Shown here piece by piece: positions 54,533-58,701 of a stretch of 64,000 nt of DNA. The position numbers and the translations under genes are program-made. The DNA is from Bauldia sp. Lineage in GTDB: Bacteria > Pseudomonadota > Alphaproteobacteria > Rhizobiales > Kaistiaceae. The notes beneath the pieces were generated by a model, which made no database searches, was not told where the DNA came from, and was given only the letters and a program-made list of their open reading frames with translations. The number at the start of each line of letters is the position of its first letter. Positions within the stretch are counted from its first letter, which is position 1. The stretch is from the NCBI GenBank assembly GCA_020849325.1, contig JADLGL010000082.1:1-64000 (forward strand). Reading direction: 5' to 3'.

Positions 54533-56193
54533 TTGAACGTCGCGGATTACGTCGTCGCTTTCCTTGCCGCGATGGGGGTGAAGCACGTCTACGGCTATCC
54601 CGGCTCGCCGCTGGTGCCGCTCCTCGCGGCGTTCGAGCGGCAGGACAAAGTGCGGTTCGTGCTGATGTGGCACGAGAACGCCGCCGCGATGGCCGCCGGC
54701 GCGCATGGGCGGATCACCGGCGATCCTCGGCGTCTGCATCGCGACCTCGGGCCCCGGCGCCCTCAATGCGCTCTGCGGCGTCGTCGATTCCGATCTCGAC
54801 CGCGTACCGGTGCTCGCCCTCACCGGCTCGGTGCCGACGGCGCAGGAGGGGCACTGGGAGTTCCAGGACGTCAGCCAGGCGCAGCTCTACCGCGCCGTGC
54901 TCGCCCACAGCGCCGCCGCGACGCACCCGCACCAGCTCGTGGCGCTCCTGCGAAACTTCGTCGGCATCGCCCGGCAGGAGCAGCGCGCCGTGCACCTGTC
55001 GCTGCCGTCCGACCTCCTCGCGACGGAGATCGCGCCGGACGACCGCGTCTTCCGGCTCGACGCCGCCCACCAGCCGCGCCACCTCCGGCTGATGCCGCCG
55101 CCGATGGCGGCCGTCGAGATCGTCGCGGAGGAGATCGAGACTTATCGGCTGCCGGTCATCGTCATCGGCCGCCGGGCGCTCGGCTGCGGCGTCGCGATCG
55201 AGATGCTCGCCGAGAAGCTCGGCGCGCCGATCATCACCTCGCTCGACGGCAAGGGGATCATCGACGAGTCCCATCCCAACCTTCTCGGCGTCCTCGGTAT
55301 TTTCGGCTTCCCGGCGATGGAGGCGACGCGAAAAATCCTCCGCGAGGCCGATCTCCTCCTCGCGATGGGAATCGACACGATAAAGCCGTTCCTCACCGAC
55401 GAGGTCGACGTCCAGCGCCGGGCGTTCATCCAGTGCGAGCCCGAGGCGGCCTTCCTCACCCACGAGTACCACCGCGACCGAACGCTCGTCGGGCCCGCTC
55501 GACGCCATCGCCGACGCGCTCTGCGAGAACCTCCGCCAGCGCCCGCCGCGCGACGCCGTCACTGCCCTCGCCGCCGAACGCACGGCCTTCCGCCAGACGC
55601 TCGCGGCACCGAAGCTGGCAAAGCCCGGCGACTTCATCCATCCCCGCGATTTCCTCCTCGCCCTCAGCGCCGTCCTCCCCGAGGACGCCGCCCTAGTCTT
55701 CGACACTGGCGCCAACACGCTCTGGACGGCGCAATACCTCGAGTTGACAAGGCGCCAGCGTGTCATCGTCCCGAGCCATCTCGGCACGATGGGCTTCGCT
55801 CTCCCCGCCGCAATCGCCATGCAGCACGCGCGGCCCGGCAAGCCGGTGATCGCCCTCTGCGGCGACGGCGGTTTCCAGATGACGGTGGGCGAACTCGCCG
55901 TCGCCGTTCAGGAGCAGCTGCCGATCGTCGTCATCGTCTTCAACAACGGCGTTTTGCAGAACGTGATGGCGCAGCAGGCCGTGCCCTACGGGACGAAGCT
56001 GGTGAGCCCGGATTTCGTGGCGCTGGCGCGGGCTTATGGGGCGGATGGGGCCGAGGCTGGGGAGAACACGGCTGATGTGTTCGCCGAGGCGCTAGCGCCA
56101 AGGAGGACGCGGCCGTTCCTGATCGATCTGCGGGTAGACCCGGAGGTGCGGTTCTCAATCAGCAAGTGGGAGAATTACACCGCTCGGCTGTAG
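54533..56193 (+). pseudogene. TPP-dependent enzyme (acetolactate synthase-like), two frameshifts
   Basis: The protein starts at TTG 54533 with GGAGG five bases upstream (NVADYVVAFLAAMGVKHVYG) and has the catalytic Glu in HENAAAMAAGAHGR. One extra base near 54720 moves it to the frame of ILGVCIATSGPGALNALCG. A second extra base near 55495, in a GGG run, moves it to the frame of LDAIADALCENLRQ and the TPP motif GDGGFQMTVGELAVAV with its NN. Removing both gives about 552 residues, normal for the family. The gene is thus either decayed or mis-sequenced. The substrate is unknown. Confidence 0.8.
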
Positions 56194-56494
56194 TGCTTCA
56201 TCGTCAGCTCAACAAAACGGAGACTGACCAACGAGCTAAGCAACGCTTGCTTGAGACGGTCCGCACTCCCGCCGCTTAACGCGATCAGCCGGCATCCTTC
56301 TAGTGCCATGGTTGTGGTGTGGCCGCTGACGAACCCCACTTCGCCTCATACGCGGCTTCGTAGCCCCGCTTTCACGGGAAACGGATGGCGCCCAAATCCC
56401 ATGGACAACCGCCAGAAAAGGGGGGCCGGCCTCTTGGCGTCTGCAAGCCACGCTACTATTTAGCCAACTCAACTCAAAAGCGGGGCGTGGCACG
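56194..56494. other. Leader region of the HTH/CHAT cassette
   Basis: This 301-base gap has no credible gene and is less GC-rich than the flanking DNA to its left. It should include the left junction of the acquired segment and the cassette promoter. No transposase remnant or direct repeat is seen. Confidence 0.45.
56434..56462 (+). promoter_or_regulatory. Putative promoter of the HTH/CHAT cassette
   Basis: TTGGCG (56434-56439) and TATTTA (56457-56462) are separated by exactly 17 bases, 32 bases before the first HTH gene. The -35 is a fair match and the -10 a weak one. It is the only promoter-like pair in the leader. Confidence 0.35.
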
Positions 56495-56869
56495 ATGGCC
56501 AACGAAGAGGTGTACCTTAGGGCAATTTTGGCAACGGTTGCTCGTCAAACCTACCCGCCAGACACTTTAGCTCGACTTGTCTCACCGGTTCGGAAGGCGG
56601 GTGACAAGCAGCTAGCAGCCTACAATTTGTGTGATGGCACGCGCAGTCAAACCGACATAGCCAAAGAGCTTAAACTAGACTCTGGTGCATTCAGTCGCAC
56701 AGTCAGCAGATGGATCGAGTTAGGTATCGTAGTTCGGGTCGGACAAAATCGTGACCTTAGACTAGTTCATCTGTATCCTCTCCCAGTCTCTATACGGAAG
56801 GAGCGCTCCCATGACAGACCTGACGAGCGAGCTAATCAAGAAGATGGACATACTGATCCGACTGAATAG
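56495..56869 (+). CDS. Winged-helix protein, cassette gene 1
   Basis: 124 residues. Residues about 35-95 form a winged-helix domain: KQLAAYNLCDGTRSQTDIAK, LDSGAFSRTVSRWIELGIVV, then VRVGQNRDLRLVHLYPL. Proteins with the core "xaYxLsDGxrsxxeIAkxxgvsxxtvSrxwxxwxxxGiv" are widespread in prokaryotes and have no assigned role. The C-terminal 25 residues (RSHDRPDERANQEDGHTDPT) lie in the 59-base overlap with the next gene and are low in structure. It is the first of six coupled genes. Confidence 0.82.
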   Translation: MANEEVYLRAILATVARQTYPPDTLARLVSPVRKAGDKQLAAYNLCDGTRSQTDIAKELKLDSGAFSRTVSRWIELGIVVRVGQNRDLRLVHLYPLPVSIRKERSHDRPDERANQEDGHTDPTE

Positions 56870-57053
56870 TCTTTCAATTGTGAAAGACCTGCCGTCTCAG
56901 AAAGACAAAATACTCATGCTTCGCAGGGCAGGCCTCGGAAACATCGAGATAGCCGAAATGCTTGATACATCAGCGAATACGGTTAGCGTTACTTTGGCTA
57001 AGGCAAAACGCTCGGCAGCACACAAACAGGAGGACGGAACCATTGGAAACTGA
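56811..57053 (+). CDS. Sigma-r4-like HTH protein, cassette gene 2
   Basis: 80 residues. An N-terminal helix (SELIKKMDILIRLNSLSIVK) leads to a sigma-70 region-4-like HTH: SQKDKILMLRRAGLGNIEIA, then EMLDTSANTVSVTLAKAKRS. There is no enzymatic part. AAGGAG lies about eight bases before ATG 56811. The frame overlaps gene 1 by 59 bases and gene 3 by 11 bases. The opening helix pattern recurs in genes 3-5. Confidence 0.8.
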   Translation: MTDLTSELIKKMDILIRLNSLSIVKDLPSQKDKILMLRRAGLGNIEIAEMLDTSANTVSVTLAKAKRSAAHKQEDGTIGN

Positions 57054-57243
57054 GACACTGGCAAAAGAACTTGCTTCTATTAAGCGGTTACTTGTCCTAG
57101 CGCTGCTCAGCAGCGGCCTGACGCAGTCGCAGGTCGGAGGGGCACTCGGTATTGATCGGACAGGGGTCGGCCGGATGTTCCCAAAGGGAACGCTCAGCGG
57201 AATCCGCGGGAAGGCTGACAGGTCGGAACCTACTGATGGATAG
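57043..57243 (+). CDS. Mini-HTH protein, cassette gene 3 (paralogue 1)
   Basis: 66 residues from TTG 57043, set by AGGAGG nine bases upstream; the track start at 56962 lies within gene 2. Sequence: ETETLAKELASIKRLLVLAL, then LSSGLTQSQVGGALGIDRTG and VGRMFPKG. It is the first of three paralogues with the shared core L-x-IKrLL-x-LxLLxxGxxQxqIxxxLGxxxxTvxRMfPkG. The length leaves room for little besides an oligomerising helix and the HTH. It overlaps gene 4 by eight bases. Confidence 0.8.
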   Translation: METETLAKELASIKRLLVLALLSSGLTQSQVGGALGIDRTGVGRMFPKGTLSGIRGKADRSEPTDG

Positions 57244-57448
57244 TCAAAACAAGGAGATGCTCGACGAGTTGCGCTTCATTCGCAAGTTACTCATACTGCA
57301 ATTGCTTGGGCAGGGTGTTAAACAGCGCCAGATCGCGGCAATGCTTGGACTGAGTGAAGCAACTGTCAGCCGCATGATACCTCGCGGGGTGACAAGAGAA
57401 TCGAAGCCCAAAGCCAGCGACAAAGTTGGGAGCAGCGATGAAAACTGA
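57236..57448 (+). CDS. Mini-HTH protein, cassette gene 4 (paralogue 2)
   Basis: 70 residues from ATG 57236. It reads MDSQNKEMLDELRFIRKLLI, LQLLGQGVKQRQIAAMLGLS and EATVSRMIPRG, aligned without gaps to genes 3 and 5. The tail (SKPKASDKVGSSDEN) is charged and flexible. It overlaps gene 3 by eight and gene 5 by eleven bases. The recognition-helix residues differ among paralogues (DRTGVGRM, SEATVSRM, SQPTISRM), so different DNA targets are possible. Confidence 0.8.
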   Translation: MDSQNKEMLDELRFIRKLLILQLLGQGVKQRQIAAMLGLSEATVSRMIPRGVTRESKPKASDKVGSSDEN

Positions 57449-57632
57449 TGCCGTGCTCACGTCTATCGCGGACAACCTGGAGGCGCTCAAGAAACTCCAA
57501 ATCATGTCGTTGCTGCGTGACGGGTATTCGCAGTCGGAAATTGCACTTGCACTGGGTGTGAGCCAGCCCACTATCAGTAGGATGTTCCCAAAGGGCGCAC
57601 TTGGAAAGGAGCGCAACGGTTCCAATGGCTAA
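57438..57632 (+). CDS. Mini-HTH protein, cassette gene 5 (paralogue 3)
   Basis: 64 residues from ATG 57438, with GGGAG five bases upstream. It reads MKTDAVLTSIADNLEALKKL, QIMSLLRDGYSQSEIALALG and VSQPTISRMFPKG, the closest of the three to a textbook HTH. It overlaps gene 4 by eleven bases and the CHAT gene by eight. Confidence 0.8.
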   Translation: MKTDAVLTSIADNLEALKKLQIMSLLRDGYSQSEIALALGVSQPTISRMFPKGALGKERNGSNG

Positions 57633-58701
57633 CCCTGCGCCCGTCATTGACGGCCACGCCAGCTTCGAGGAAATCCTTGAAAGGATGGCAGCTAAGATTG
57701 GGACCTCCGAACTAAGGCGGAGGATATTGTCAGTGATCTATGGCCGGGTGCGGCGCCCTCAGACGGTCGAGCAGATTTGTACCGCCATTGGCTCTAGCTC
57801 TGGCACTGACAAGCAACAAGTCAGAAACCACGTCAACTATCTCGCCAAGAATCACCTTGTTACCAAGGAGAAGGCAGCCGGAAACACTTATGGCTACGGA
57901 AAGATGGATTTTGTATCGGCCAATAAGGCTCGGCTTTTTCGTCTTGCCTCAAGTCCATCGGAACGAAACGCACTTCCAACAAGAAGGAGACCTGCGTCAG
58001 CGTTGATTGCGGCAACAGCCCCCACGCGGGGCCGCGCGTCCGCTATGGGGCGCCCACGGCCGCGAGCGTCTCTTGATATTCTCTACCTGACGGCGTCACC
58101 AGCATCCCAGGAGGCGCTGCGAGCAGACGCTGAGGTTCGTGCAGTGCAAAATGAGGTCCGCGGGGCGAAGTTTAGAGACCGCGTTCGTATCGCTGTTTCG
58201 CCGGCGGCGGACGCAGGTAGCCTTATGCAGGGCCTGAATGATCATCGGCCTCAGGTCGTGCATTTCTCGGGGCATGCTGGTGGGCAAGCACTCTGGATGG
58301 ACGACGGTCGTGTTGATCGTTCGGTAGGATCTGCGTTGAAGTTCGATGTGCTTGCCGAGATTCTGAACGCTACGGACGAACCGCCGGTTCTTCTAGTTCT
58401 GAATGCTTGCGATACGCTGAACGGGGCGACAGCATTGCTCTCGGCGGTGCGGTGCGTGGTTGCCATGTCTGACTCAGTGACAGATTTGGGCGCCACGGTG
58501 TTCGCGACCAAGTTCTACGGTGGGATTGGCGCCGGCCAGTCGGTCCTATCGGCCTTCAATCAGGGGCGAGCGGCCATGAAGGCGGCCACGCTAGCCGACG
58601 CCGATTTGCCAACGCTTTTGTATGGAGACGACCTCGATCCTTCGATGATTGTGCTGGTCAAGCAGCGGCGCTCTTGGAAGGTTGGTTCGTCTTACGAGTA
58701 G
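57625..58701 (+). CDS. Winged-helix/CHAT caspase-like protease
   Basis: 358 residues from ATG 57625, chosen because it reproduces the eight-base overlap used upstream. Residues about 13-105 are a winged helix (LRRRILSVIYGRVRRPQTVE, then VRNHVNYLAKNHLVTKEKAA). An Arg/Pro-rich linker spans 115-148. Residues about 150-335 are a CHAT domain: LDILYLTASPASQEALRADA, VRAVQNEVRG, HRPQVVHFSGHAGG, VLLVLNACDT and VVAMSDSVTDLGATVFATKF. The caspase-like dyad is His217 and Cys262. CHAT proteases include separase relatives and bacterial defence effectors. The DNA-binding fusion suggests that protease action is tied to a DNA or promoter state. Confidence 0.85.
   Translation: MANPAPVIDGHASFEEILERMAAKIGTSELRRRILSVIYGRVRRPQTVEQICTAIGSSSGTDKQQVRNHVNYLAKNHLVTKEKAAGNTYGYGKMDFVSANKARLFRLASSPSERNALPTRRRPASALIAATAPTRGRASAMGRPRPRASLDILYLTASPASQEALRADAEVRAVQNEVRGAKFRDRVRIAVSPAADAGSLMQGLNDHRPQVVHFSGHAGGQALWMDDGRVDRSVGSALKFDVLAEILNATDEPPVLLVLNACDTLNGATALLSAVRCVVAMSDSVTDLGATVFATKFYGGIGAGQSVLSAFNQGRAAMKAATLADADLPTLLYGDDLDPSMIVLVKQRRSWKVGSSYE

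Follow-up and report, generated by a model that had tools for sequence, protein, structure and literature searches.

The window, that is, the whole 64,000-nucleotide stretch of Bauldia sp. DNA analyzed here, harbors a six-gene operon on the forward strand (56495–58701), in which all the genes overlap and the last codes for a protein combining a winged helix-turn-helix (HTH) module with a CHAT domain (wHTH-CHAT; Table 1). The other five genes match HTH families only, namely MarR_2 for ORF1, sigma-70 region 4 for ORF2 and HTH_23 for H4. A preliminary description had considered the last gene singly; the gene itself stands, with the reading frame that it was given, but the conserved unit is the entire six-gene cassette. 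The operon constitutes a ~2.2-kb stretch of low GC (~0.53 as against ~0.70), which points to horizontal transfer. A search upstream of ORF1 found no common operator, palindrome or promoter. Beside the island, a gene for a TPP-dependent (acetolactate-synthase-like) enzyme extends across three reading frames (54533–56193) and is frameshifted or mis-sequenced.

Table 1. Features of the operon and of its last gene, in window coordinates
Feature	Position	Strand	Remarks
Low-GC island, approximate limits	56300..58701	.	GC 0.49-0.61 vs about 0.70 outside
ORF1, 124 aa, MarR-like winged helix, first gene	56495..56869	+	MarR_2 E 1.4e-6, above cut-off
ORF2, 80 aa, sigma-70 region-4-like HTH	56811..57053	+	Sigma70_r4_2 E 1.5e-5, just under Pfam cut-off
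H3, 66 aa, small HTH, TTG start	57043..57243	+	Paralog of H4 and H5; slot clade 96/91
H4, 70 aa, small HTH	57236..57448	+	HTH_23 32.3 bits, above cut-off, obtained with a longer start; slot clade 97/93
H5, 64 aa, small HTH	57438..57632	+	Paralog of H3 and H4; overlaps CHAT gene by 8 nt
wHTH-CHAT gene (predicted protease), 358 aa	57625..58701	+	ATG 57625, stop 58699-58701; last gene of operon
Winged-helix module, residues ~14-115	57664..57969	+	Model m7b02eb3cfca0, ArsR/MarR-like fold
Linker motif PTRRRP, residues 118-123	57976..57993	+	Kept in sister loci and G695
CHAT domain, residues 147-345	58063..58659	+	Foldseek/VIA match to 8tl0, Z 25.7
Catalytic-position His217 codon (HFSGH)	58273..58275	+	Invariant in 38 sequences
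Catalytic-position Cys262 codon (LNAC)	58408..58410	+	Invariant in 38 sequences

The five HTH genes recur as a set in the related loci described below, except that L021 has no H3. ORF1 of the window is 45–57% identical to its counterparts in four sister loci, and ORF2 is kept in all of them at 38–41% identity. H3, H4 and H5 are paralogs: within their own genome H4 matches H5 at E 1.1e-7 and H3 at 7.3e-7, and nearly all proteins of the three kinds share the motif RM[FIL]P[KR]G. In a tree of 20 such proteins, members of different slots stay apart, with the H3 and H4 groups supported (Table 1) and that of H5 weak (44/0). The three paralogs are maintained as separate slots across loci.

A CHAT domain behind a winged helix

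The C-terminal part of the last protein belongs to the CHAT family by both its profile and its fold. In a Pfam scan it scores 44 bits against PF12770, above the curated cut-off of 24 (E 2.4e-11), and phmmer matches the protein to the SAVED-CHAT structure 8tl0 at E 3.6e-11, with the alignment pairing His217 and Cys262 with the His and Cys of the 8tl0 chain (index 355 and 402). Both residues are unchanged in 38/38 aligned CHAT relatives. An AlphaFold2 model of the protein, computed with 31 sequences in the input, has a mean pLDDT of 87; its CHAT domain superposes on 8tl0 with a Z of 25.7 and an rmsd of 2.4 Å over 196 residues, and on caspases, gingipain and C11 peptidases with Z ~14 (Foldseek, VIA-align). 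In the model, His217 follows strand 211–215 and Cys262 follows strand 256–260, the positions of the dyad in the caspase fold. Proteolytic activity is a prediction for this domain.

At the N-terminus, Pfam yields only a weak HTH_20 match (23.6 bits, under the cut-off of 27). Modelled alone, this module attains a pLDDT of 84 as an ArsR/MarR-like winged helix and resembles PagR, CzrA and ArsR at Z 9.3–9.6 over 86–89 residues, values of around 9 denoting moderate likeness, with a Foldseek E of 8e-3 at best. The module is retained in the wHTH-CHAT proteins of the sister loci. On the strength of the model we assign it a winged-helix fold, for which DNA binding is predicted, and the whole protein probably unites a caspase-like protease with a DNA-binding domain. 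These results agree with the preliminary description in its identification of a CHAT domain with an intact His/Cys dyad, and of a winged helix on the same chain; the structure prediction that it had proposed as a check returns a CHAT fold with the two residues at caspase-like strand ends. The architecture is also as unusual as had been surmised, the other CHAT relatives that we found having a coiled coil or other N-termini.

A domain of this kind might conceivably be catalytically idle and serve as a scaffold within an ordinary transcription factor, since among the caspase domains at the effector position of vWA-MoxR systems about 70% are inactive (PMC7159879). The invariance of the His and the Cys in all wHTH-CHAT copies argues against such a role, to which we give very little credence.

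Sister loci, insertion at lepA and a change of effector

A class-wide search recovered a single relative of full length, G272, in which the complete operon occurs in unchanged order. The alignment of the window protein with that of G272, used as a query, retrieved five loci at 38–48% identity to the window protein: those of a Rhodoplanes piscinae MAG (L019), Methyloceanibacter marginalis (L020), a Nitrospinaceae MAG (L021), the G272 copy again (L022) and HGW-Alphaproteobacteria-11 (L023). Single-protein scans of genomes and viral sequences with P0001 gave no matches. The CHAT loci (n = 6) hence come from Alphaproteobacteria and one Nitrospinaceae MAG, the contig of which is 3.9 kb long and carries little else, so that a binning error could account for its placement in Nitrospinota. 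The HTH array lies upstream of the CHAT gene in all sister loci with gene order conserved, L021 being without H3, and the overlap of H5 with the CHAT gene is exactly 8 nt in 6/6 CHAT loci. ORF1 of the Methyloceanibacter cassette (L020 4831–5153) is frameshifted. No viral sequences were retrieved with alignments of ORF1, ORF2 and wHTH-CHAT as queries, and phage and plasmid searches returned nothing cassette-like.

In the tree of CHAT domains, the six wHTH-CHAT proteins and one shortened relative form a clade (99/94), the adjacent branches of which are coiled-coil CHAT proteins. The shortened relative, from a Rhodospirillaceae MAG (L025 5751–6684), has a CHAT domain with a TKRNP linker and neither winged helix nor HTH array; it is a decayed or rearranged copy. 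The coiled-coil CHAT genes have neighborhoods of their own: on an Agrobacterium Ti plasmid (L004 868–8525) one clusters with a winged-helix gene, two more CHAT genes, TIR genes and a caspase gene, and on a Sphingomonas plasmid (L005 1489–5396) caspase, S8 peptidase, coiled-coil CHAT and TIR genes are adjacent.

Three cassettes of the family, those of L019, L020 and a further locus, G695, lie tail to tail with lepA, either directly at its 3′ end or no more than about 80 bp away. On the far side of the cassette the lepA 3′ end is repeated over 79 bp (87%) in L019 and 135 bp (93%) in L020, and these repeats resemble the outcome of site-specific integration. No bracketing repeat was found at G695 or around the window copy, which is located away from lepA and for which relatives offered only distant homologs of the flanks, so that no empty site was defined. 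No integrase was seen within the 2.2–2.5-kb units. Going by composition and context, we regard the cassette as a compact unit that has apparently moved horizontally.

G695, found by profile searches with ORF1 and ORF2, comes from the same taxonomic order but a different family. There, a protein of 307 aa comes after ORF1, ORF2, H3, H4 and H5; its first 127 residues match the window winged helix (29% identity, E 5e-18), the rest being a non-CHAT domain with invariant WGGEQxD, KGP and NGDQ motifs. Since the same array and winged helix here precede a non-CHAT domain, the effector position appears to be exchangeable, with one case known. The second effector domain, for which Pfam, NCBIfam and PADLOC gave no match and the PDB no convincing relative, may be nuclease-like, a reading suggested by its motif (WGGExxD...KG...NGDQ) only. 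It occurs additionally in Gordonia and Rhodococcus plasmids and in one faecal phage contig. In several larger proteins it is C-terminal (L123 6995–7918, minus strand; L124 1919–2953; L125 1943–2959; L127 1501–1968); a match on a viral contig (L126) was rejected as fortuitous, being short and in an unrelated protein.

The same locus throws light on the linker of the window protein. Its PT[KR]RRP motif, followed by a low-confidence stretch (residues 127–139, pLDDT <50 in the AlphaFold2 model), had been put forward as a cleavage or activation site. The Arg/Pro motif is indeed present, but the N-terminal homology extends through LPT[KR]xRP even in G695 (LPTKERP), the protein of which is without CHAT; because the motif survives where there is no protease, it probably marks the C-terminal boundary of the winged-helix module rather than a site of CHAT self-cleavage. 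This bears equally on the idea of a LexA/CI-like repressor, in which the protease would cut its own linker after the winged helix and so derepress the operon. The layout of DNA-binding domain, linker and protease is the same and the basic linker motif is conserved; nevertheless, the motif occurs in the CHAT-less G695 protein, and the CHAT proteases known to us act in trans, which together make autoproteolysis of this kind very improbable.

Proposed function and comparison with known systems

The cassette looks like a modular bacterial conflict system of an undescribed type, probably directed against phages. More specifically, we tentatively favor a horizontally transferred system for defense, most likely anti-phage (or anti-element), on account of: (i) the conservation of gene order and overlaps in six CHAT loci; (ii) the persistence of three HTH paralogs as separate slots; (iii) the swap of effectors after a shared winged helix, as seen in G695 and as is characteristic of conflict systems; (iv) the occurrence as low-GC islands in high-GC genomes, with repeat-bracketed insertion at lepA; (v) the intact dyad in a CHAT fold; (vi) the plasmid-borne neighbors (TIR, caspase and peptidase genes) of the related coiled-coil CHAT genes. 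Briefly, we envisage the following mechanism. The winged helix would act in concert with the small HTH proteins on DNA, be it the promoter of the cassette itself and/or invading DNA, and together they would keep the effector inactive or bring it to its site. Infection or foreign DNA might then disturb this DNA-bound state and activate the effector, upon which the CHAT domain would cleave one or a few proteins in trans, possibly the HTH proteins themselves and possibly a host or phage protein, with arrested growth, death or a switch in transcription as the outcome.

Set against this proposal, the cassette contains no known defense gene and no sensor domain other than the HTHs, and no operator was found upstream. 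Its proteins lack a strong match to the core models of known anti-phage systems in PADLOC 2.0.0, the best being chat at E 4.8e-5 on a fragment, with Csa3 and PDC-M05A weak. Further, the family comprises seven loci (six CHAT loci and G695), several of them from MAGs, with one effector swap, and it was not seen in phages or plasmids.

Two other readings, both of which we rank below defense, draw on the same gene set. The first is a protease-controlled transcriptional switch, in which a signal on the winged helix activates the CHAT domain, one or more HTH proteins are cleaved and transcription of the cassette or the host changes. All partners of the protease are HTH proteins, ORF2 being sigma region-4-like, and precedents exist in CapP-CapH (PMC13373217) and Csx29 (PMC10028731); yet G695 keeps the full array with an effector devoid of a recognizable protease, so CHAT cleavage cannot be all that the function of the array depends on, and we consider this switch unlikely. 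The second, to which we give slightly less weight still, is an addiction module of the toxin–antitoxin type, with the HTH proteins as antitoxins and autorepressors and the wHTH-effector as the toxin, the two together safeguarding a small mobile element both at lepA and at its other sites. This would fit the arrangement of small HTH genes ahead of an effector, the overlaps, through which translation could be coupled, the mobility and the swappable effector; on the other hand, five HTH partners in distinct conserved slots exceed the usual antitoxin, and the DNA-binding domain is on the effector itself.

Extending the defense proposal, the cassette might typify a new class of mobile immune cassettes, in which DNA is recognized or marked by an ordered HTH array, which then passes the task to an interchangeable effector coupled to a wHTH (CHAT, or the WGGExxD...KG...NGDQ domain, maybe a nuclease), the whole being a ~2.5-kb unit able to insert at the lepA 3′ end without an integrase of its own. 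We hold this broader generalization to be possible, if doubtful. Were it true, a caspase-like protease would be linked directly to DNA binding, and a conflict system would have five HTH proteins as its conserved part and an exchangeable effector; it would also raise the questions of by what means a cassette of this size travels and for what reason the three HTH paralogs have to stay apart. Caspase-like effectors and exchangeable effectors are in themselves known kinds in conflict systems (PMC7159879), and the licence-limited literature searched contained no description of five HTH proteins in an array with a swappable effector coupled to a wHTH.

Among known systems, the LexA/CI-type repressors differ in that their S24 serine/lysine peptidase fold is absent from the window protein, the C-terminal domain of which is CHAT. 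With regard to gasdermin-activating CHAT proteases, the operon has no gasdermin gene, its other genes coding for HTH proteins. The closest CHAT domains (39–48% identity) are those of the coiled-coil proteins of Agrobacterium, Rhodococcus and others (L003, L004, L024, L027), which instead possess an N-terminal coiled coil and are encoded by single genes with no HTH array. SAVED-CHAT (PDB 8tl0), a filament-forming CHAT protease, shares the CHAT domain with aligned His and Cys; however, the window protein has a winged helix in place of the SAVED ligand-binding domain (no SAVED match in the Pfam scan), and its operon adds five HTH genes, with neither a cyclase nor a CRISPR partner. Craspase, in which the TPR-CHAT protein Csx29 is associated with Csx30 and CASP-sigma and cleaves a sigma-factor inhibitor (PMC10028731), likewise ties a CHAT protease to transcription-factor partners, whereas the window protein lacks TPRs (Pfam scan, model) and bears a DNA-binding domain on the protease itself, and no Cas7-11 or Csx30 is found among the operon genes. 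Finally, the immune-operon regulators CapP-CapH combine a protease with a DNA-binding protein in a phage-defense setting, with CapP cleaving the DNA-binding repressor CapH on binding ssDNA (PMC13373217); in the present cassette, by contrast, the predicted protease is of the caspase fold, carries its own winged helix and is accompanied by five HTH partners.
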